Assembly: GCF_030065885.1 (NCBI RefSeq)
Contig: NZ_JASJCS010000064.1
Coordinates: 1-35,098 of the forward strand
Reading direction: 5' to 3'
DNA length: 35,098 bases
Origin: Ilumatobacter sp.
GTDB taxonomy: Bacteria > Actinomycetota > Acidimicrobiia > Acidimicrobiales > Ilumatobacteraceae
Shown here: positions 3,321 through 35,098 of the stretch, in pieces
How positions within the stretch are numbered: position 1 is the stretch's first letter
Layout: each line of letters opens with the position of its first letter
Notes under the pieces: generated by a model
Told to the model about the DNA's origin: nothing
What the model saw: the letters and a program-made list of their open reading frames with translations, nothing else
Database searches by the model: none
Made by a program: the position numbers and the translations under genes

Positions 3321-3759
3321 GATTCTCGTGATTGTTCGCGACTTCTGGTCGAGCCGGCGCGTCTGTTCATCGTGCGACGCCGGACCGACCACCGTTCCCC
3401 CACCGACGTCGCCGATGCCAGTACCACGGCAGACGGCACGCCACAGGCCGATCGCGGCGAACGTCGCGACGGCCTGTGGCGGGTCGTGATCGAGTTCGAG
3501 CGCCTCCGGCGAGGCCGGGCGGCATACACCGACGACCCGCCCCGCCGCGTCGACCGCCTCCCCTGACGCCCGATCGGTCCTGGCCCGCAAGCGCGGGGCA
3601 CCGATCCGAGCCCGTCGCACGGCGCCACCATCGCCGACGAGGCATTCAGGTTTCCGAGTCGGAGGCGGATCGGCCGAGCGCAAGATGCGACGAACCCGAA
3701 CTGGCTGATGGGCAGCGAGCGGCGAGACGGAACGCCGCGATCGGGCGATCCGGCCCGAC
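3321..3759. other. Gene-poor stretch between the phosphorylase gene and ilvC
   Basis: About 440 bases between convergent genes. Several frames are open on both strands, but all give Arg/Pro/Ala-rich translations without recognisable domains, as expected of random high-GC sequence. I see no tRNA, no strong hairpin with a T-run and no insertion-sequence ends. A short frame at 3372-3566 (+, GTG start) cannot be excluded but has no support. Confidence 0.5.
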
Positions 3760-5357
<1,598 letters not shown>

Positions 5358-5374
5358 GAGAGTGCTCCTCGAGA

Positions 5375-5409
5375 GCGTTACAGAAGGTGTCTGACACCTT
5401 CTGTAACGC
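5375..5409. repeat. Perfect 35-bp palindrome between ilvB and ilvN (copy b)
   Basis: Arms of 17 bp (GCGTTACAGAAGGTGTC and its exact complement) flank a single T at 5392. It begins 3 nt after the ilvB stop and ends just before the ilvN Shine-Dalgarno region. It has no T-run, so it is not a typical intrinsic terminator. In mRNA it would fold into a very stable hairpin that could set the ilvB:ilvN ratio or protect 3' ends. Its centre is shared with the palindromes at 1987 and 14619. Confidence 0.85.
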
Positions 5410-5412
5410 TGG

Positions 5413-7164
5413 TCAGGCGAGTCGATCGCGGATGGTCTGCTGGGTCGGGTGCACGATCAGCTCGTCGTTCGACGCGCCGGCGGGCACCATCGGGAACACC
5501 TTCTCGTCGGAGTCGGTGCGGAACTCGACGACCACGCTGCGGTCGTTGATCGCGTTCGCCTTCTCGATCGCCGGGGCGACCTCCTCGGGCGACTCGACCC
5601 GGATGCCGACGCAGCCCATCGACTCGGCCCACTTCACGAAGTCGGGCACGTCGGTCGAGAGGTACACCTCGCTGTAGCGCTCGTCGTAGAACATCTCCTG
5701 CCACTGGCGGACCATGCCGAGGTAGCTGTTGTTGAGGAGCGCCACCTTGATCGGGATGCGCTCGACCGTGGCGGTCACCAGCTCCTGCGCGGTCATCTGG
5801 AAGCAGCCGTCACCGTCGACGGCCCACACCGTGTGATCCGGCCGGCCGACCTTGGCGCCGATCGCAGCGGGGACCGAGAAGCCCATCGTGCCGAGGCCAC
5901 CCGAGTTCACCCAGGTGTACGGCTCGTCGAAGTTCCAGTGCAGCGACGACCACATCTGGTGCTGCCCGACGCCGGAGCAGAGGATCGTGCCCTCGGGCGC
6001 CGCGTCGCGCAGCTCCTCGAGGCAGTGCTGCGGCTTCAGCGCGGCGCCCGGCTCGCTGCGCTCGTAGGTGAGCGGGAACTGCTCTTGCCAGCCGGAGATG
6101 CGGCTCTTCCAGGCACTCGTGTCGGGCTGCTCGGCGCCACCTTCCTTGAGGTCGCGGATGGCCCTCACGATCTCCTCGGTGACGAGCCGGCAGTCGCCGA
6201 CGATCGGCACGTCGGGGCGCCGCACCTTGCCCTGTTCGGCCGGGTCGATGTCGACGTGGATGATCTTGGCCTCCGGCGCGAACGAGTCGACCTTGCCGGT
6301 GATGCGGTCGTCGAAGCGGGCGCCGAGGTTGATGAGCAGGTCGCTCTTCTGCATCGCCGTCGTGGCAGTCGCCGTGCCGTGCATGCCGGGCATGCCGAGG
6401 TTGAGCGGGTGGCTGTCGGGGAACACGCCACGCGCCATCAGCGTCGTGACGACGTGGATGCCGGTGAGGTCGACGAGCTCGCGCAGCACCTCCGCGGCAC
6501 GCGCCTTGAGCATGCCGCCGCCGACGTAGAGGACCGGGCGCTCGGCCTGCATGATGAGGCGCGCCGCCTCCTTGATCATGCGCGGATGCCCCTTCGTGGT
6601 CGGCCGGTAGCCGGGCAACGACGCCGACACCTCGTCGTCGCTCGGCCAGTACCAGCTCATCTCGTTCTGGAGGATGTCCTTGGGGACGTCGACCAGGGTC
6701 GGGCCGGGGCGGCCGGTGGTGGCGATGTGGAAGGCCTGCCGCACCACCATCGGGATGTCGTCGGCGTCGAGCACCAGCTCGTTGTGCTTGGTGCACGACC
6801 GGGTGATGCCGACGGTGTCGCACTCCTGGAACGCGTCGAGCCCGATGCCCGAGCTGGCCACCTGTCCGGTGATCGTGACGGTGGGGATGGAGTCCATGTA
6901 GGCGTCCATCAGCGGCGTGACCATGTTCGTCGCCGCCGGACCCGACGTGACGACGGCGACGCCGGCGCGCCCGGTCACGTGCGCGTAACCCTCGGCCATG
7001 TGGCCGGCGCCCTGCTCGTGGCGTACCAGGATGTGGCGCATCGAGGACTCGATCAGCGGGTCGTAGGCCGGGAGGATCGCACCGCCGGGCAATCCGAACA
7101 CGGTGTCGACCTGCTCCATCTCGAGCGATTTGATGAGGGCTTGGGCTCCCGTCATTCGGGTCAT
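5413..7164 (-). CDS. ilvB: Acetolactate synthase large (catalytic) subunit
   Basis: Thiamine-diphosphate enzyme condensing pyruvate with pyruvate or 2-ketobutyrate; first common step of branched-chain amino-acid synthesis. 583 residues. The N-terminal pyrimidine-binding domain contains VFGLPGGAILPAYD and the catalytic Glu in VRHEQGAGHMAEGYA. The C-terminal diphosphate domain holds the GDG...N motif (VDGDGCFQMTAQE through ALLNNSYLGMV). The ATG at 7164 is chosen because AGGAGA lies about 9 nt upstream and the family begins at this point; the frame stays open further upstream only because it runs through the leader terminator. First structural gene of ilvBNC, controlled by the attenuator at 7211-7317. 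Confidence 0.97.
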   Translation of the reverse strand: MTRMTGAQALIKSLEMEQVDTVFGLPGGAILPAYDPLIESSMRHILVRHEQGAGHMAEGYAHVTGRAGVAVVTSGPAATNMVTPLMDAYMDSIPTVTITGQVASSGIGLDAFQECDTVGITRSCTKHNELVLDADDIPMVVRQAFHIATTGRPGPTLVDVPKDILQNEMSWYWPSDDEVSASLPGYRPTTKGHPRMIKEAARLIMQAERPVLYVGGGMLKARAAEVLRELVDLTGIHVVTTLMARGVFPDSHPLNLGMPGMHGTATATTAMQKSDLLINLGARFDDRITGKVDSFAPEAKIIHVDIDPAEQGKVRRPDVPIVGDCRLVTEEIVRAIRDLKEGGAEQPDTSAWKSRISGWQEQFPLTYERSEPGAALKPQHCLEELRDAAPEGTILCSGVGQHQMWSSLHWNFDEPYTWVNSGGLGTMGFSVPAAIGAKVGRPDHTVWAVDGDGCFQMTAQELVTATVERIPIKVALLNNSYLGMVRQWQEMFYDERYSEVYLSTDVPDFVKWAESMGCVGIRVESPEEVAPAIEKANAINDRSVVVEFRTDSDEKVFPMVPAGASNDELIVHPTQQTIRDRLA

Positions 7165-27782: not shown

Positions 27783-29030
27783 TCAGGACGCGGTCGGCGC
27801 GAGGCCGCCAGCGGTGGCGGGCTCGGGCTCGGTCGGTGTCGCCACGACGAACCGCCACAGCACGACCAGGCCGATCACGGTCGCCACCGCACCACCGAAG
27901 AAGCCGGCCTGCTTCGAGAACACCTGCCCGACCGCACCGAGCACCAGGCCGCCGGCCACGCTGCCGACCTCGAAGAACATCGTGAACGAGCTGAGCGCAC
28001 TGGCCCGCTCGTGGTCGCCGACGCGGTTCACGACGTTCGCCATCAGCGACGGGTACATGAACGCCATGCCGGCCCCGATGCCCGCTGCGCCGAGCCAGAG
28101 CGCCCACGGCTCGGCGACCGAGCTGATCAGCACCAGAGACAGCGTCAGCGTCACGAGCGCGATGCTGACCGTCCGATGGGCGCCCAACCGTTCGGGCACC
28201 TTTGCAGCGAGCAGGCGTAGCGACAGGCTCACCGCGCTGTACACGAGGAACAGGCCGGCCGAGCCGGCCAGCCCGACCTCGCGGGAGTGGTCGGGGATGA
28301 ACGCGAAGTACACCGACAGCGCCGCGATGCCGGTGGCGAGCACGACGCCCGGCCAGAGCGCGGCTCGGTGGAAGAGCGGCGCCTTCGCTGCTGCGGGCGC
28401 GGCCGTCCGGTCGACGCGCCGCGGCACGCCGAGCACGGTGAACGCCGTGACGAGCGCGAACGCCGACCCGACGAGGAAAGTCGTCGCGAACCGGTCGTCG
28501 CCGAGCACCGCCTCACCGATGGTCGGGCCGATGCCGATGCCGCCGAACACGGCGACCGAGAAGTAGCTCGCGGCCTCGGCCCGCCGGTTGGCCGGCGAGA
28601 GGTCGGCGATCAGCGTCGAGGCGGCCACGAAGAGCGCCGCCTCGCCGAGCCCCATCACGGCCCGCAGCAGCAGGACGTGCCACAGCGCAGTCGCCAGCGC
28701 CGTCAGGGCACCGGCGGCCGCCGCCATCACGGCGCCCGCCATCATCAGCGCCCGACGGCCGAACCGGTCGGTCAACCGGCCGAGGAACGGCCGCGCGAAC
28801 ACCGCGGCCGCCGCGAACGACGCCACCGACAGGCCGACGCCGAACTCGCCGGCGCCGAGCTCTTCCTCGATGAAGCGCGGCACCGAGACGAGCACGATGC
28901 CGATGTAGAGGAAGAAGAAGAACGCGGTGACCGTCACCGAGAGGAACGGACCCGAGATCAGCCGCTCGCGGGGCGCGCCAGGACCCGGCCGTTCCGGGAG
29001 GGGGGTACGCGGGAGGCTCACCGACGCCAT
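27783..29030 (-). CDS. MFS transporter, possible exporter of the downstream-linked cluster
   Basis: 415 residues from ATG 29030, with about 12 hydrophobic segments. TM1 (about 29-48, VTVTAFFFFLYIGIVLVSV) is preceded by the Arg-containing RERLISGPFL. The MFS signature between TM2 and TM3 is G-R-L-T-D-R-F-G-R-R. Long drug-efflux-like features such as RAVMGLGEAALFVAAST point to an exporter, but the substrate is unknown. It lies 90 bp downstream of the transglutaminase gene on the same strand and could belong to that operon. In-frame starts further upstream (29060, 29087) add only low-complexity residues. Confidence 0.85.
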   Translation of the reverse strand: MASVSLPRTPLPERPGPGAPRERLISGPFLSVTVTAFFFFLYIGIVLVSVPRFIEEELGAGEFGVGLSVASFAAAAVFARPFLGRLTDRFGRRALMMAGAVMAAAAGALTALATALWHVLLLRAVMGLGEAALFVAASTLIADLSPANRRAEAASYFSVAVFGGIGIGPTIGEAVLGDDRFATTFLVGSAFALVTAFTVLGVPRRVDRTAAPAAAKAPLFHRAALWPGVVLATGIAALSVYFAFIPDHSREVGLAGSAGLFLVYSAVSLSLRLLAAKVPERLGAHRTVSIALVTLTLSLVLISSVAEPWALWLGAAGIGAGMAFMYPSLMANVVNRVGDHERASALSSFTMFFEVGSVAGGLVLGAVGQVFSKQAGFFGGAVATVIGLVVLWRFVVATPTEPEPATAGGLAPTAS

Positions 29031-29120: not shown

Positions 29121-30005
29121 TCAGACCCGAGCGACGTCGACCGAGACCGTCAGCGTCTGCGCCGTCGACGGGCCGATCATCACGCCGCGCACCGGTGTGA
29201 CGTCGCCGTAGTCGCGGCCCCACGCCACCGTGACGTGGTCGTTGACCGGCAGGTGCCCGTTCGTCGGGTCGAAGTCGACCCATCCGGCCTCGGGCATCCA
29301 GACCGAACACCAGGCATGGGACGCATCGGCACCGACCAGGCGCTCCTCCCCCGGCGGCGGCACCGTCTCGATGTAGCCACTCACGTAGCGCGCCGCCAGC
29401 CCGACCGAACGGAGGCAGCCGATCGCGAGGTGAGCGAAGTCCTGGCACACCCCGCGGCGAGCGGCGAGCACGTCGACGAGGGGTGTCGAGAGGTCGGAGA
29501 AGTGCGGGTCGAACTCGAACGTGGTGAAGATGTTCGAGCACACCTCGGCGACCGCCTCGACGATCGGGCGGCCCGGCGTGAACGACGAGTCGGCGATGGC
29601 GTGGAGCGGCGCCCCGAGCGCCGCTGTGTCGATCAACGCCGAGTCGGCGCGGAAGGCGCCGACCTCCACAGCGAGGTCGCCCTCGAGGCCGTCGAGTCGC
29701 GCGACGACGCCTTCCCACGGCGTGTCGTCGTGCGGCATCGCCTGCTCGTCGAGCTCGACGACGCTCGTCGCCTCGACGGCGATGTCGTCGTGCGGCTCGT
29801 GCAAACCGAACTGGTTGACGAGGTTGCCGAACGGATCGAGGAACGAGTCCCACTCGGATGCCGGCGGGTCGAGGCGGACCTCGGACTCGACGACGCGCTG
29901 CCACCGCGTCGGGCGCGGCACCAGGCAGGCCACGGTGTACCCGTCGGTCATCGTGGCGCCGTACCGGTATTCGGTGCGATGGTTGACCCGGAACGTGCGC
30001 GTCAT
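29121..30005 (-). CDS. Transglutaminase-like cysteine peptidase/transferase
   Basis: 294 residues. An N-terminal beta domain (about 3-95) begins FRVNHRTEYRYGATMTDGY, typical of bacterial transglutaminase N-terminal regions. The core has the complete triad: Cys187 in RRGVCQDFAH, His230 in DASHAWCSVW and Asp246 in VDFDPTNG. Such proteins cleave or transfer amide bonds and are consistently found beside circularly permuted ATP-grasp and alpha-E genes, where they are predicted to remove or process the peptide made by the ligase. The ATG overlaps the upstream stop by four bases (ATGA). Predicted cytoplasmic: no signal peptide. Confidence 0.94.
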   Translation of the reverse strand: MTRTFRVNHRTEYRYGATMTDGYTVACLVPRPTRWQRVVESEVRLDPPASEWDSFLDPFGNLVNQFGLHEPHDDIAVEATSVVELDEQAMPHDDTPWEGVVARLDGLEGDLAVEVGAFRADSALIDTAALGAPLHAIADSSFTPGRPIVEAVAEVCSNIFTTFEFDPHFSDLSTPLVDVLAARRGVCQDFAHLAIGCLRSVGLAARYVSGYIETVPPPGEERLVGADASHAWCSVWMPEAGWVDFDPTNGHLPVNDHVTVAWGRDYGDVTPVRGVMIGPSTAQTLTVSVDVARV

Positions 30006-32290
30006 GCGTGCTCTCCCCCGGTCGGCCGCATGACGATCGGGTTGACCGGCGTGGAGAACCACCGGCTGACGACACGTGCGCCGGCGTCGACGAGGATCGC
30101 ACGCAGCTCGGCCACCATCTCGGGGAGCGGCCGATCGAGCGCAGCGCTCGCCCGCTCGGCCAACTCGCCCACCACCGGCCAGTCGCCGGCGTCGGCATGG
30201 GCGGTGAGCCGGTCGATCGACGCCGCCAGCGAACGCGGGTTGGCGCGGTCGTGCACGATGAGCGCGATCGCGGCACCGACCTCGACGTCGCTCCGGTACC
30301 GACGCCGGTAGGCGACCAGGCTCTCGCTCGCCGCCAGCAGCACCTCGACGGCCGCATCGTCGGGTGCGTCCGCGGACAGGTCGGCCGGCAGCACGAGCTC
30401 GCCGTCGGCGCCCGGCACGCCGAGCACGCCCTCGATGAGGTCGAGCACCACGAGGCAGCGCTCGAGCCGCCGACCAGCGTCGCCGATCAGCCAGGCCGGT
30501 CCCTGCACCGTGCTCTCCTGCCACAGGCCGGCGATGGCGCCGAAGTCCGCCACCAGCGAGTCGAGATCGTCGACGACGGTCCGGTGCCGTTGCAGCGTCG
30601 CACGACGCTCCGCGAGTCGGGCGAGCACGCGGCCGGTGGTCACCGAGAGGAACTCTCGCACGGTCGTCGCCTCGGTGAGCAACGAGCCCACCTCGCGAGC
30701 GACGGCATCACCCACGAGCGACAGCTCCTCTCGCACCGCGTCGACGCTCGGTGCCTCGGCGGGAGCGGGCTCGCCCTCGCGCCGGGCCCGGCGCGCCAGT
30801 CGGCACATCGTCGCCGCCCACGTACCACCGCCGAGCCCCGCAAGCCCCGGATCCTGCTCCATCCTCGACGCCACGACCCGCATCACGCGCGTCATCGCCT
30901 CGGCGCGCTCCGCGGCACGGTTCATCCAGTAGAGCGAGTCCGCGGCCCGGGTCGGCACCGACCGCCCGAAGTCGACCTGCGGCAGCCTCGGTCCGACGGT
31001 GGGAGCGACCGTGTGCCCGAGCACCCAGACGTCCTTGGCCGTGCACGCGGTCGGTCGCGCCGGGTCGTCGCCCGGCGCGACGACGCGGCCCGTGCCACCC
31101 GGCAGCACGACGACACCGCCGCCGTCGTGCACGGCGAACAGCCGCAGGACCACGCCGGCGTGGGCGAGGCCGGGGTCGACCGAGCCGGGCGCGAGCGGCG
31201 ACCCTGCGAGCGGCCGATCGGGACGGTCGAGCATCGGGAGGAGCTGCTCGAGAGGGCGGATGGCGTCGATCGCAGCGGCGACGAAGGGCCGGACGTCGGA
31301 GGACTCGACGACGCCCGCGCCGTGCGCGTTGGCCAGCGCGATGCCGCCGGCGCGCACGGCTTGCAGCAGACCGGGGACGCCCGCCGATCCCCGTGCGGCG
31401 ACGTCGAGCGGGTCGATCTCGGCATCCTCGAGCCGACGGAACAACACGTCGACCGGTTCGAGACCGTCGAGCGTGCGCAGCCAGACGCGTCGCTGCCTCA
31501 CCACGAGGTCGGCCCCCTCGACCAGGTTCACGCCGAGCTCGACCGCGAGATACGAGTGGTCGACGTACGAGGGATGATCGAGGCCGCCGGAGAACACCAC
31601 CGTCCGTGGGCTCGCAACGCCGGTGATCGCGGCGAGCGCGCGGCGCACCGAACCCGTGTACCGGGCGAGCGACGCCACGTCGGCCGCGGCCATGACATCC
31701 GGCAGCACCCTCGACGTGACCGACCGGTCGAGCAGCGCGTAGCCGAGCCCCGGCGGCGCGTCGGTGTGGTCGCGGACGACGTACCAGACGCCGTCGGTGC
31801 CGAGCGCCACGTCGACTGCGTAGGTCATCAGCCACCGGGCAGGGGATGCGCCGACGGCGTTGATGCGGTATCGGTCGGTACCGGCGAGCGCCTCGATCGG
31901 CACCGTCCGATCGCGAACGAGGCGGCGGTCGCCGTACAGGTCCGAGATCACGGCCTCGAGCGCCTCCATCCGTTCGGCGACGGCGAGCGACAGCCAGCGG
32001 AACGTGGCCGCGTCGAGCACCACCGGGATCGGGTCGAGCCGCCACGGCCGGCTCTCGACCGTCACGGGACGGCCGTCGGCGCGGACCGGCAGGTCGTGGA
32101 CCAGATGGCCGGCGCCCTCGGCCGCGAGCAGCCGGTCGGCCCGGAGCTGGCGGTCGGCGATCCGGGTGGGATCGAGCAGCCGCGGGGCGAGGCCGTCGGG
32201 AAGGTCGAGCGTCGTCGGTGCGCGGGTTGCTCGGCCACGGTCGACGGTCGCCGCCGACGTGCTCGTGCCGGACCTCGCGCGGTCAGACAT
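30002..32290 (-). CDS. Circularly permuted ATP-grasp / alpha-E fusion with a degenerate ATP-grasp
   Basis: 762 residues. The first ~440 match the circularly permuted type 2 ATP-grasp fold: VVLDAATFRWLSLAVAERM, VVRDHTDAPPGLGY (about 171-184), GVNLVEGADLVV and VDVLFRRLEDAEIDPLD. After GVPGLLQAVRAGGIALANAHG the family normally has a long segment with a K-P-A ATP-binding lysine and a V-A-Q/Q-E-x strand. Here about 30 Pro/Leu-rich residues (350-380) replace it, and the chain resumes at LRLFAVHDGGGVVVLPGG. Residues about 445-745 are an alpha-E helical domain (SLYWMNRAAERAEAM). The total is some 80-100 residues shorter than fusions I know of. It is probably a pseudo-ligase or scaffold (inference). 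It overlaps its neighbours by 8 and 4 bases. Confidence 0.9.
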   Translation of the reverse strand: MSDRARSGTSTSAATVDRGRATRAPTTLDLPDGLAPRLLDPTRIADRQLRADRLLAAEGAGHLVHDLPVRADGRPVTVESRPWRLDPIPVVLDAATFRWLSLAVAERMEALEAVISDLYGDRRLVRDRTVPIEALAGTDRYRINAVGASPARWLMTYAVDVALGTDGVWYVVRDHTDAPPGLGYALLDRSVTSRVLPDVMAAADVASLARYTGSVRRALAAITGVASPRTVVFSGGLDHPSYVDHSYLAVELGVNLVEGADLVVRQRRVWLRTLDGLEPVDVLFRRLEDAEIDPLDVAARGSAGVPGLLQAVRAGGIALANAHGAGVVESSDVRPFVAAAIDAIRPLEQLLPMLDRPDRPLAGSPLAPGSVDPGLAHAGVVLRLFAVHDGGGVVVLPGGTGRVVAPGDDPARPTACTAKDVWVLGHTVAPTVGPRLPQVDFGRSVPTRAADSLYWMNRAAERAEAMTRVMRVVASRMEQDPGLAGLGGGTWAATMCRLARRARREGEPAPAEAPSVDAVREELSLVGDAVAREVGSLLTEATTVREFLSVTTGRVLARLAERRATLQRHRTVVDDLDSLVADFGAIAGLWQESTVQGPAWLIGDAGRRLERCLVVLDLIEGVLGVPGADGELVLPADLSADAPDDAAVEVLLAASESLVAYRRRYRSDVEVGAAIALIVHDRANPRSLAASIDRLTAHADAGDWPVVGELAERASAALDRPLPEMVAELRAILVDAGARVVSRWFSTPVNPIVMRPTGGEHA

Positions 32291-33212
32291 CGACGTACCG
32301 CCCGACGATCGCGTCGTGGAGCCGAGCGATCGCGACCTGCACCTGGTCCATCGCCCGATCGAGCTCGGCCCCCTCGGTGTCGCGCGGATCGGAGACAGCC
32401 AGCGCCTCCTCTGCTTCGGTGAGCGCGACGATGACGTCCTGCGGCTCCGGCAGCGCGAGCAGCACGGTGCGGATGGCGTCGAAGCACCCCTGCACCGACC
32501 GCGGGAACGCCGAGTAGCCGAGCAGGAAGCGGACCACCGCGATGCCGTCGATCGGCCCGTGGGTGGCCCGCTGGTACATCTGGAGCGCGGAGACCGATCG
32601 GAGCACGCTCATCCAGCGCACTTCGTCGGCGACCAGCGCCTCGCGGTCGGTCTCGCTGAGAATGCCGGCGGCGGCGACACCGAGCACCCGCGTCGTCATG
32701 TCGGCCCGCTCGACCAGGCGTCCGAGCCGGAACATGCGGTACGGGTTGGCCCTGGTCATCGTCGACTCGAGGACGCCGTCGAGTCGACGGCTCGTCTCGA
32801 TGACGCGCACGAGGAACCGGTCGCGGAGCTGGCGCTCGACCGCGGGTCCCGCCGTCGCGTCGACGTACTGCGACAGCTGGTTCACCGACTGCCAGGCCTC
32901 GCGCGGCAGGACCTCGCGCGTGGTCCTCAGGTTCTCGCGCGCCGAGGTGACCGCGCTGCGCACGCTGCTCGGGTTGGCGCGATCGGCGATCAGGTGCCGG
33001 AGCACGGTGCGCTCGCCCTCGGGATCGTCCTCGGGGATCGGCAGCTCGACGTTCGAGCCGGCGATGACCGCGAGGGGTTCCCAGCGCAACACGCTCGGCG
33101 AGTCGACCACGAGGTCGTTGTACGCCCGCACGATCCGCGCCGTGTCCTCGGCCCGTTCGGTGTAGCGCGCTCCCCAGTAGAGGCGGTCGGCGGTCCGGGC
33201 GAGCAGTGCCAT
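32283..33212 (-). CDS. Alpha-E domain protein
   Basis: 309 residues, all-helical alpha-E domain. The start LLARTADRLYWGARYTERAEDTAR is the family signature (L-x-R-x-A-x-x-L-Y-W-x-x-R-Y-x-E-R-A-E). It is repeated in weaker form at about 195 as MFRLGRLVERADMTTRVL, reflecting the internal duplication typical of the family. Alpha-E proteins occur only with circularly permuted ATP-grasp enzymes and probably serve as subunits or acceptors; biochemistry is lacking. The ATG at 33212 shares a base with the upstream stop (TGATG) and its own stop overlaps the next gene by 8 bases. The frame extends upstream, but with no homology. Confidence 0.93.
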   Translation of the reverse strand: MALLARTADRLYWGARYTERAEDTARIVRAYNDLVVDSPSVLRWEPLAVIAGSNVELPIPEDDPEGERTVLRHLIADRANPSSVRSAVTSARENLRTTREVLPREAWQSVNQLSQYVDATAGPAVERQLRDRFLVRVIETSRRLDGVLESTMTRANPYRMFRLGRLVERADMTTRVLGVAAAGILSETDREALVADEVRWMSVLRSVSALQMYQRATHGPIDGIAVVRFLLGYSAFPRSVQGCFDAIRTVLLALPEPQDVIVALTEAEEALAVSDPRDTEGAELDRAMDQVQVAIARLHDAIVGRYVDV

Positions 33213-34684
33213 CAGCCGTCGCTCCCCTGCACCTGCTGTTGCCGCTGTTGCTGCGTCGCCGGCCCCCCGGGTGGCGCGAAGGACGCGTCGACGATCCACG
33301 TGTCCTTGCTGCCACCGCCCTGCGACGAGTTCACGACGAGCGAGTCCTTGGGCAGCGCCACGCGGGTCAGCCCCCCCGGTGTCACGTAGCTCCGTTCGCC
33401 GGTGAGCACGAACGGTCGCAGATCGACGTGGCGCGGCTCGATGCCGCCCTCGACGAGCGTCGGCACCGTGGAGAGCGAGATGATCGGCTGCGCCACCCAG
33501 TTGCGAGGATCGGCCTCGATCGCGGCGACGGCCTCGTCGAGCTCGTCGCGCGTCGCCCGGCTGCCGATCAGGATGCCGTAGCCGCCGCTCTCGTTCGCCG
33601 GCTTCACGACCAGATCACCGATGTTCTCGATCACGTGCCGGCGCTCGTCGTCGTACATCGTCCGGTACGTCGGCACGTTGCGGATCATCGGCTCCTCGCC
33701 GAGGTAGTAGCGGATGATGTCGGGCACCCACGCGTACACGACCTTGTCGTCGGCGACACCGGCACCCGGCGCGTTGGCGAGCCCGACGTTGCCGGCCTTC
33801 CACGCTCGCATCAGCCCGGGAACGCCGAGCATCGAGTCCTCACGGAACACCTCGGGGTCGAGGAACAGGTCGTCGATCCGGCGGTAGATGACGTCGACCC
33901 GCTCGAGGCCGGCGATCGTCTTCATGTACACGCAGTCGTCGTCGCCCACCACGAGATCGGCACCCTCGACGAGCTCGGCCCCCATCCGCTCGGCGAGGAA
34001 CGAGTGCTCGAAGTAGGCCGAGTTGAAGATGCCCGGCGTCAACACGGCGACCTGGGGGTCGGCGACGCCGTCGGGCGCCAGCGACGCGAGGAGGCGGCTG
34101 AGCTCCTCGGTGTAGCTGTCGACCGGCCGGATCCGCTGGCGCTCGAACAGCTCGGCGAACGCCCGCTTGGTCACCCCCCGGTTCTCGATCACGTAGCTCA
34201 CGCCGGACGGCACGCGGAGGTTGTCCTCGAGCACGTACATCTCGCCGTCGTCGTCGCGGACGAGGTCCGTGCCCGAGATGTGCGCCCACACGCCGTGCTT
34301 GGGCCGCACGCCACGGCACTGTTCGCGGTAGTTCGCCGACGCGTCGAGCAGTTCGGCAGGGAACACGCCATCGGCGATGACACGCTGGTCGTTGTAGAGG
34401 TCGTCGATGAACATGTTGAGCGCTCGCAGCCGCTGGGAGAGGCCGGCGCTGATCTGGTTCCATTCGGGACCCGGGATGACGCGCGGGATGATGTCGAACG
34501 GCCACGCACGATCGATGTTCTGGCCCTCGGAGTACACGGTGAACGTGATCCCCATCGTGAGGATGTCGAGCTCGGCCAACTGCTGACGCTCTCGCAACTC
34601 GGGCTCGCCGATCGAGTCGATCAGGCGCATCAGCGCGGACGCCGCGGGCCTCGGTTCACCGCCGGGCGTGATCAGCTCGTCCAT
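33212..34684 (-). CDS. Circularly permuted type 2 ATP-grasp protein (likely active ligase)
   Basis: 490 residues. It keeps the ATP-grasp elements the fusion lacks: Lys361 in GDLVVKPANESGGYG, the strand NWVAQPIISLSTVPTL (about 395-410), and the acidic/Asn site YVLEDNLRVPSGVSY (about 150-164). Other family blocks: FTVYSEGQNIDRAWPFDIIP, AHISGTDLVRDDDGE and VDVIYRRIDDLFLDPEVF. It is predicted to form amide or peptide-like bonds through an acyl-phosphate. The C-terminus is unusually Gln-rich (QQQRQQQ, about 478-484). First gene of the alpha-E/transglutaminase operon. The ATG at 34684 has TATGGT 9 nt upstream. Confidence 0.94.
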   Translation of the reverse strand: MDELITPGGEPRPAASALMRLIDSIGEPELRERQQLAELDILTMGITFTVYSEGQNIDRAWPFDIIPRVIPGPEWNQISAGLSQRLRALNMFIDDLYNDQRVIADGVFPAELLDASANYREQCRGVRPKHGVWAHISGTDLVRDDDGEMYVLEDNLRVPSGVSYVIENRGVTKRAFAELFERQRIRPVDSYTEELSRLLASLAPDGVADPQVAVLTPGIFNSAYFEHSFLAERMGAELVEGADLVVGDDDCVYMKTIAGLERVDVIYRRIDDLFLDPEVFREDSMLGVPGLMRAWKAGNVGLANAPGAGVADDKVVYAWVPDIIRYYLGEEPMIRNVPTYRTMYDDERRHVIENIGDLVVKPANESGGYGILIGSRATRDELDEAVAAIEADPRNWVAQPIISLSTVPTLVEGGIEPRHVDLRPFVLTGERSYVTPGGLTRVALPKDSLVVNSSQGGGSKDTWIVDASFAPPGGPATQQQRQQQVQGSDG

Positions 34685-34754: not shown

Positions 34755-34774
34755 CCGTTGTCGGCCTACAACGG
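34755..34774. promoter_or_regulatory. Palindrome CCGTTGT-N6-ACAACGG, candidate operator of pckG
   Basis: Perfect 7-bp half-sites, 6-bp spacer, ending 4 bp before the PEP carboxykinase ATG. It overlaps the -10-like TACAAC (34767-34772, 6 nt before the ATG), so a bound repressor would block transcription. The regulator is unknown. Confidence 0.5.
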
Positions 34775-34778
34775 ACAC

Positions 34779-35098
34779 ATGAACGCTCCCGACTACGTCC
34801 AACACGACGGCCTCAAGCAGTGGGTCGCAGAGATGGTCGAGCTGTGCAAGCCGGCCGCTGTGCACTGGTGCGACGGCTCCGACGAGGAATACGACCGGCT
34901 CTGCCAAGAGCTCGTCGACGCCGGCACCTTCATCAGGCTGAACGAGGAGAAACGGCCCAACAGCTTCCTCGCCCGCTCGGACCCGAGCGACGTCGCACGC
35001 GTCGAGGACCGCACGTTCATCTGCTCGCGCACCGAGGAGGATGCCGGGCCGACGAACCACTGGATGGACCCCAAGGAGATGAAGGAGATCCTGACGGG
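34779..35098 (+). CDS. pckG: Phosphoenolpyruvate carboxykinase (GTP), 5' part only
   Basis: 106 codons are visible before the window ends; no stop. The translation [20 protein letters not shown] begins like GTP-dependent PEP carboxykinases, followed by the substrate-side blocks [40 protein letters not shown] and [10 protein letters not shown]. The enzyme converts oxaloacetate to PEP (gluconeogenesis) or back. The full protein is normally about 600 residues, so roughly five sixths lie beyond the edge. The start is fixed by homology and by a palindrome/-10 region directly upstream. It is divergent from the ATP-grasp operon. Confidence 0.92.

Follow-up and report, generated by a model that had tools for sequence, protein, structure and literature searches.

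Gene clusters that bring together an amidoligase, an alpha-E protein and a transglutaminase are said to have been described first by Iyer et al. in 2009, and glutathione-type ATP-grasp ligases activate a carboxylate as an acyl phosphate and join it to an amine. A larger arrangement, consisting of a DUF2126 transglutaminase, an ATP-grasp/alpha-E fusion, a transglutaminase and a Peptidase_Mx protein, is what we take to be the Rv2566-Rv2569c type of cluster. The amidoligase/alpha-E/transglutaminase type has already been published, as the available text of three papers (PMC5666114, PMC6376114 and PMC3597751) makes clear, and its ATP-grasp, alpha-E and transglutaminase genes recur in the Anbu operon according to the available text of the first two. 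In that of PMC6376114, pull-downs with Anbu as bait for the Yersinia Anbu operon gave no specific interactions, and the ATP-grasp of the Anbu operon released phosphate from ATP and was not stimulated by Glu or Gln (section 8); ligation by the family is therefore a predicted activity, this relative having shown only phosphate release. The available part of PMC12239564 concerns a different system, with an ATP-grasp and an inactive transglutaminase.

Here we analyse a cluster from Ilumatobacter sp., found on a stretch of 35,098 nucleotides (the window) that is an entire contig. It belongs to the amidoligase type, as a preliminary description had proposed, and the literature found, seen in part, reports no product for that type. 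The same description had called the cluster an undescribed pathway, which holds for its chemistry, but is too strong for the gene set, which had already been described. Pfam searches bore out all four proposed gene identities, each on the minus strand (Table 1); the overlaps of 1, 8 and 4 bases between the four genes are exact, and the ATG of the neighbouring MFS gene (Table 1) lies at 29030, i.e., 90 bp past the last stop of the operon. A PEPCK gene, named by eye from sequence, lies upstream in divergent orientation and is truncated by the contig end; MFS and LemA genes are the other neighbours of the operon. Membership in an Anbu operon was rejected, these neighbours including no Anbu gene, and the two proteasome-family matches in the window genome are adjacent to each other on a different contig (C123). 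An anti-phage defence system was likewise rejected, the four proteins having no PADLOC match.

Table 1. Features of the Ilumatobacter cluster and its neighbour, in window coordinates.
Feature	Position	Strand	Basis and reading
Stand-alone circularly permuted ATP-grasp (gene 1), 490 aa	33212..34684	-	Pfam full length; predicted live amide ligase
Stand-alone alpha-E protein, 309 aa	32283..33212	-	Pfam; confident model; internal tandem duplication (by profile comparison)
ATP-grasp/alpha-E fusion, 762 aa	30002..32290	-	Pfam, residue alignment, model; predicted non-catalytic ligase-like subunit
Degenerate ATP-grasp domain of fusion	31001..32218	-	Alignment of 32 lidless fusions; profile comparison
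Alpha-E domain of fusion	30056..30958	-	Pfam; profile match to stand-alone alpha-E
Transglutaminase-fold cysteine amidase/peptidase (predicted), 294 aa	29121..30005	-	Pfam; triad Cys187, His230, Asp246
MFS transporter	27783..29030	-	Synteny; neighbour, judged not part of the system

The fusion was used as query against the class, where 41 of 198 genomes match (most solely through the related stand-alone ATP-grasp), and against the family, where 44 of 221 match, and the regions around these matches were fetched. Among the 42 fetched Ilumatobacteraceae loci with a fusion (genomes G303 and G314 contributing two part-loci each), the four genes are found in the same order and on one strand in all 31 complete loci, including L097, where the ATP-grasp gene matches in pieces; the remaining 11 are truncated at contig ends, and nothing in them speaks against the order. 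This conservation excludes chance as the source of the arrangement. Junctions between the operon genes are short or overlapping in most relatives (gene starts picked by script), and because of these junctions and the kept order the four genes likely form one transcription and translation unit, as had been proposed. A scan of the locus found no promoter-like site and two terminator-like sites against 1.0 expected, one within the MFS gene and one within the fusion gene. Within the window genome, which is about 91% complete, CP_ATPgrasp_2 and Alpha-E families have matches solely in this operon, and a search of NCBIfam with the four operon proteins gave no match. Both families are also present in Synechococcus elongatus and Caulobacter.

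The first gene encodes a full-length permuted ATP-grasp domain, as in other clusters with CP-ATP-grasp, alpha-E and transglutaminase (CP_ATPgrasp_2, PF14403, over 1-374 of 374, E 1e-160), and its sole solved relative by sequence is 3n6x (E 3.1e-154). It carries D140, E153, N155 and K361 together with the Gly-rich loop SGGYG, and these four residues are kept in 50 of 50 aligned stand-alone ATP-grasps. A search across the phylum, covering 296 genomes, yielded 30 loci, and the corresponding Asp, Glu, Asn and Lys are present in 18/18 of the stand-alone copies there; the four stop-bearing matches examined among them (L182, L183, L185 and L188) have the stop between ATP-grasp and alpha-E or where the ATP-grasp ends. 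The pattern D-x12-E-x-N and K-P-x4-G resembles D318, E330, N332 and K533 of E. coli glutathionylspermidine synthetase (GspS), E153, N155 and K361 being mapped to E330, N332 and K533 by eye from motif and spacing, with the numbering confirmed on the sequence. The metal and lid sites are assigned from roles that we presume for E330, N332 and K533. A profile comparison with E. coli GspS gave no match, so that the link to this enzyme rests on a fold search and on the motif read by eye, and the literature yielded nothing usable on metal-ligand residues in related enzymes. By this residue pattern, gene 1 looks like the one live ligase of the operon.

The stand-alone alpha-E protein (Pfam Alpha-E, PF04168, E 1.6e-70) has the ER motif typical of such clusters twice, E19-R20 and E168-R169 being invariant in 42 stand-alone alpha-E proteins. 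Its model is all-helical (pLDDT 93.9) and finds no match in the PDB at E<=0.001, the best fold match having E 0.14 and TM 0.14. The two halves of the protein match each other in a profile comparison (probability 98.3, E 1.2e-14, score 93.0, with a best score of 15.8 among 30 column-shuffled controls), and alpha-E is by this measure duplicated internally in tandem, so that either half carries one of the two ER motifs. In the fusion, the alpha-E domain matches the stand-alone protein at E 5.5e-24, and among 35 fusions its E461, R462 and R611 are invariant and E610 nearly so, which preserves both ER motifs (E461-R462 and E610-R611). At the other end of the operon, the transglutaminase-fold protein (Bact_transglu_N 9.5e-22 and Transglut_core 1.8e-20 in Pfam; nearest solved structure by sequence, 3isr) lies next to the fusion gene and has a catalytic triad, as in other such clusters, with Cys187 in 49/49, His230 in 48/49 and Asp246 in 49/49 copies of 250-360 aa (fragments excluded). 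Because the Cys-His-Asp triad is kept, amidase, peptidase or transferase activity is probable for this protein.

In the fusion, the CP_ATPgrasp_2 match (1.8e-76) extends over only 1-268 of 374, alongside an Alpha-E match of 7.6e-36. In the window fusion, the predicted metal Glu has become Arg (codon 31774-31772) and the Asn has become His (codon 31768-31766), and alignment and profile comparison show that the lid residues matching about 344-400 of gene 1 are missing at about 31210. Thus the fusion has neither the Glu and Asn assigned by analogy as Mg2+ ligands nor, in the window copy, the ATP lid with its Lys and Gly-rich loop, both of which mark an active ligase. The 50 stand-alone ATP-grasps were aligned with 39 fusions (32 lidless and three lid-bearing fusions of the family and four long fusions), leaving out the gene-1 fragments L086 and L097 (two pieces) and the fusion fragments L105, L107, L108, L112, L113 and L114, with L135 outside the fusion set. 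At four of the 132 positions that are at least 97% conserved in the stand-alone proteins, i.e., E153, N155, R68 and R157, the residue is kept in none of the 39 fusions, and the lid lysine K361 is kept in two. Glu and Asn are both absent from 32/32 lidless, 3/3 lid-bearing and 4/4 long fusions.

The same loss is seen beyond the family. Both residues are absent from 30/30 fusions of named genomes (28 by scan, L152 and L159 by tblastn), whose contigs are labelled Actinomycetota, Pseudomonadota, Campylobacterota, Thermodesulfobacteriota and Myxococcota, and from all 12 fusions among the 30 loci of the phylum-wide search; the fusion sets overlap by at least four loci (L138, L143 and L155 are the contigs of L041, L042 and L117, and L173 is the gene of L040). 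The scan of named genomes was seeded with dead fusions, with seed patterns outside the tested residues, and a live fusion in another clade is therefore possible. Removal of the lid is found in 32 of 35 family fusions, the window's included. All 32 lidless fusions lack the Gly-rich loop and the Lys, 29 having no residue at the Lys position and three (L039, L098 and L099) aligning a few residues there, none of them Lys. The other three family fusions (L106, L109 and L110) retain the lid region with Glu changed to Arg and Lys to His, and look like intermediates. A tree built from the part of the domain that precedes the lid has a branch with all lidless fusions on one side (SH-aLRT 91) and requires a single change for the loss of the lid; it came from a quick search on 81 rows (17 of the 50 gene-1 proteins, 35 family fusions and 29 long fusions) with 25 of 78 inner branches left open. 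Family fusions, long fusions and stand-alone ATP-grasps make up three groups, without demonstrating a common origin of all fusions. The lidless row L102 sits on a long branch.

Other parts of the fusion have been retained, as D140, R268, R423, R441, K460, D461 and W463 are kept in 39/39 fusions. Because these residues and the ER motifs are kept while those of the ATP site are gone, the fusion is, as far as conservation can tell, under constraint without a recognisable ATP site. Its model (pLDDT 86, pTM 0.85) matches 3n6x, eukaryotic-type glutathione synthetases, GspS and YgiC/YjfC in a fold search. The preliminary description had listed a permuted ATP-grasp and an ATP-grasp/alpha-E fusion; both domains are real, but the fusion's ATP-grasp has lost the predicted metal and ATP sites and looks dead, which leaves one live ligase rather than two. 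We found no literature on a dead ATP-grasp/alpha-E fusion, although the founding cluster paper may mention one.

Compared with the cluster attributed to Iyer et al., the window operon has the same three families, in the order of the three-gene form (ATP-grasp/alpha-E/transglutaminase) that occurs in the class outside the family (L043-L054), but it differs in having a fusion gene between alpha-E and transglutaminase, and in that the ATP-grasp half of this fusion looks dead and, in most of the family, is lidless. Long fusions accompanied by a transglutaminase also occur in the class outside the family, and several named Acidimicrobiia have both sets in one place, in the order ATP-grasp, alpha-E, DUF2126 transglutaminase, fusion and transglutaminase, in some cases followed by Peptidase_Mx. 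The transglutaminase gene directly follows the fusion in 28/30 named loci, the contig ending in the other two. Closer to the window, genes for DUF2126 and Peptidase_Mx lie immediately upstream of this operon in five genomes of the same genus and after it in two loci of genus g4, and DUF2126 is found in 8 of 221 family genomes. The window operon thus shares with the DUF2126-type cluster its fusion and transglutaminase, and differs from it in that its genome has no match to DUF2126 (a control genome, Synechococcus elongatus, being positive) or to Peptidase_Mx (for which no control genome gave a match). With the genome about 91% complete, the absence of both is likely rather than certain. Since relatives carry the extra genes and the window genome has no match to them, the operon is best regarded, on gene content, as a larger known cluster in reduced form. 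The likeness to GspS and the glutathione synthetases is more distant. The fold appears related by the fold search, and GspS also combines ligase and amidase, according to its record annotation within one protein, but identity is 9-14%, and in the window ligase and amidase are separate genes, accompanied by alpha-E and a dead ligase copy.

The preliminary description had further suggested that the adjacent MFS gene could export the product of the cluster, and had proposed comparing gene order to see whether the two occur together. That the cluster makes a small peptide-like metabolite exported by this transporter now seems very improbable to us. The adjacency itself is, on synteny, old, because 35 loci show the transglutaminase gene and 13 of them have MFS within 400 bp after it, and two further loci (L089 and L116) have MFS immediately before the operon. 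Against export stands the fact that the MFS gene does not travel with the operon: orthologues (E <= 1e-60) are present in 57/221 family genomes, and by hand count 34 of these 57 have no match to the fusion query. Of 17 fetched MFS loci without an adjoining operon, 10 have a gene for acyl-CoA dehydrogenase 12-285 bp upstream of MFS and another four have one 846-2132 bp upstream, and seven have an Ada/AlkA gene at most 152 bp downstream. These 17 exclude L134 and L135, where the operon or its end adjoins or may adjoin, and include L127, which begins 170 bp before MFS so that its upstream side cannot be judged; in that genome (G301) the operon locus L099 runs to the edge of its contig and might lie next to L127, so G301 was not counted among those with the operon elsewhere. 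In G027, G308 and G312 the four-gene operon is indeed elsewhere (MFS locus L126 vs operon locus L039, L128 vs L098 and L129 vs L110, respectively), and MFS remains with its acyl-CoA dehydrogenase and Ada/AlkA neighbours; in G231 the three-gene form is likewise apart from the MFS locus. A genome of the same genus with a listed completeness of 98%, G300 (L119), has no match to the operon, and the surroundings of its MFS gene are preserved. Conversely, acyl-CoA dehydrogenase directly precedes the ATP-grasp in 11/37 operon-bearing loci, and Ada/AlkA directly follows the transglutaminase in 8/35. On this synteny, acyl-CoA dehydrogenase, MFS and Ada/AlkA make up an older neighbourhood, in which the operon resides or into which it has moved. 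Since MFS keeps its own neighbours both in operon-free genomes and where the operon lies elsewhere, it is probably not part of the system.

We consider it rather probable that the operon makes and trims an amide bond, acting through a live ligase partnered by alpha-E, a ligase-like subunit that does no catalysis, and an amidase with a Cys-His-Asp triad. That these proteins are catalytic where so described, that they form a complex and that they run such a cycle of making and trimming is what we infer. By analogy with glutathione-type ligases, the product of gene 1 would use ATP and Mg2+ to convert a carboxylate into an acyl phosphate and join it to an amine, with alpha-E as its putative helical partner. 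The fusion would be a single-chain copy of this ATP-grasp/alpha-E pair in which the ATP site is gone and the rest of the fold kept, and most likely serves as a non-catalytic subunit that holds substrate or product, paired with the amidase encoded next to it. The transglutaminase-fold enzyme, in turn, would most likely cut or transfer the same amide bond. GspS, in which ligase and amidase share a chain, may offer the closest parallel to such a pairing of bond making and bond breaking.

It appears quite unlikely that the fusion has remained catalytic in some unusual way, whether through another nucleotide or metal geometry or by using the ATP lid of the stand-alone ATP-grasp in trans. The residues kept in all 39 fusions would fit such a role, and so would the finding that 19 of the 30 named fusions and 5 of the 12 from the phylum-wide search carry a lysine at the lid site, which indicates that much of the lid is often intact outside the family; however, both predicted metal ligands are missing from every fusion checked, and the Gly-rich loop is gone from all the lidless family fusions on their side of the tree branch. 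An unlikely but somewhat stronger alternative is nitrogen scavenging, in which the transglutaminase-fold protein would act on amides or peptides to free ammonia or amino groups, the acid left behind being recharged or tagged by the ATP-grasp under nitrogen limitation. A cluster of DUF404/407, DUF403, transglutaminase and large transglutaminase belongs to the NtrC/sigma54 regulon of Burkholderia cenocepacia (PMC5491218), Anbu is upregulated under nitrogen limitation in Pseudomonas putida (PMC5666114), and in marine metagenomes these domains associate with those of urea metabolism (PMC3597751), as stated in the available text of each paper. This support stems, however, from other phyla or bulk data, and the available text of PMC5666114 also reports Anbu expression unchanged under several other conditions. 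Nor do the neighbouring genes point to nitrogen: a scan of 72 of 144 listed non-family and 10 of 82 listed family neighbours (without L051, L054, L157, L160 and L089, where a simple gene finder missed the operon) gave no family in more than three of the 72 proteins from related non-family loci, and no nitrogen-specific family is among the 25 neighbour families listed of 120. Nitrogen scavenging is nonetheless compatible with the making and trimming of an amide bond, and could be its setting.

More tentatively, and with the balance of our judgement somewhat against it, fusion to alpha-E may mark a conserved class of ATP-grasp pseudoenzymes that, going by record labels, spans four or more bacterial phyla. 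The dead ligase domain would then be the half of an amide-ligase machine that does no catalysis but binds a peptide-like substrate and hands it on to the cysteine amidase encoded alongside; the Ilumatobacteraceae, with the lid cut out, would be the extreme of this class.

Amidoligase/alpha-E/transglutaminase clusters are widespread, and in the literature found, as far as its available text goes, no product has been assigned to them since they were first listed. While the gene set was already described, the variant added here is the apparently dead, lidless fusion. The residue pattern divides the labour between the two ATP-grasp proteins, making the stand-alone one a candidate for ligation and the fusion a candidate binding subunit, and so points to one protein for tests of ATP use and to the other as substrate bait. 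If the lidless fusion truly binds no ATP, the Ilumatobacteraceae would provide a natural experiment in which ATP binding is dispensable for the fusion's conserved role.

The stand-alone alpha-E gene of the operon (window 32283-33212) encodes an internal tandem duplication, each half of which carries an ER motif; the one-line Pfam description of alpha-E names a conserved ER motif and nothing more. The ATP-grasp gene match in L097, a locus from a MAG, is split into four pieces (4291-7003) separated by gaps of about 200-240 bases, reflecting either an assembly error or real insertions. On the fusion tree, L163, a contig labelled as a Klebsiella pneumoniae MAG, groups closely with the Deltaproteobacteria-labelled L161, and its label may be wrong.

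Two genes next to the MFS/operon site are conserved in much of the Ilumatobacteraceae (loci L038, L084, L090, L091 and L100): one codes for an acyl-CoA dehydrogenase, the other for a fused Ada/AlkA protein in which an Ada zinc domain and an AraC-type HTH are joined to AlkA. In L121, a 46-aa stretch (3371-3508) with 72% identity to the operon's transglutaminase lies 217 bp past the MFS gene, the rest of the operon being absent from that genome, and may be a leftover of a lost operon.

Genes on the upstream side of the operon in the window and in a same-genus locus
Feature	Location	Position	Basis
Start of GTP-type PEP carboxykinase-like gene	window 34758-35098	divergent, upstream of operon	sequence read by eye
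Transglutaminase/DUF2126 amidoligase and Peptidase_Mx zinc peptidase genes	L035 12345-16715	immediately upstream of operon	

In five same-genus genomes (L035, L036, L081, L082 and L083), two genes adjoin the operon on its upstream side: one encodes a Peptidase_Mx zinc peptidase, the other a transglutaminase/DUF2126 amidoligase, which is 1101 aa long in L035. Neither gene was found in the window genome (~91% complete). An N-terminal query from the PEP carboxykinase-like gene had no match in any other fetched locus searched, which indicates that the upstream side of the operon is different in the window's species.
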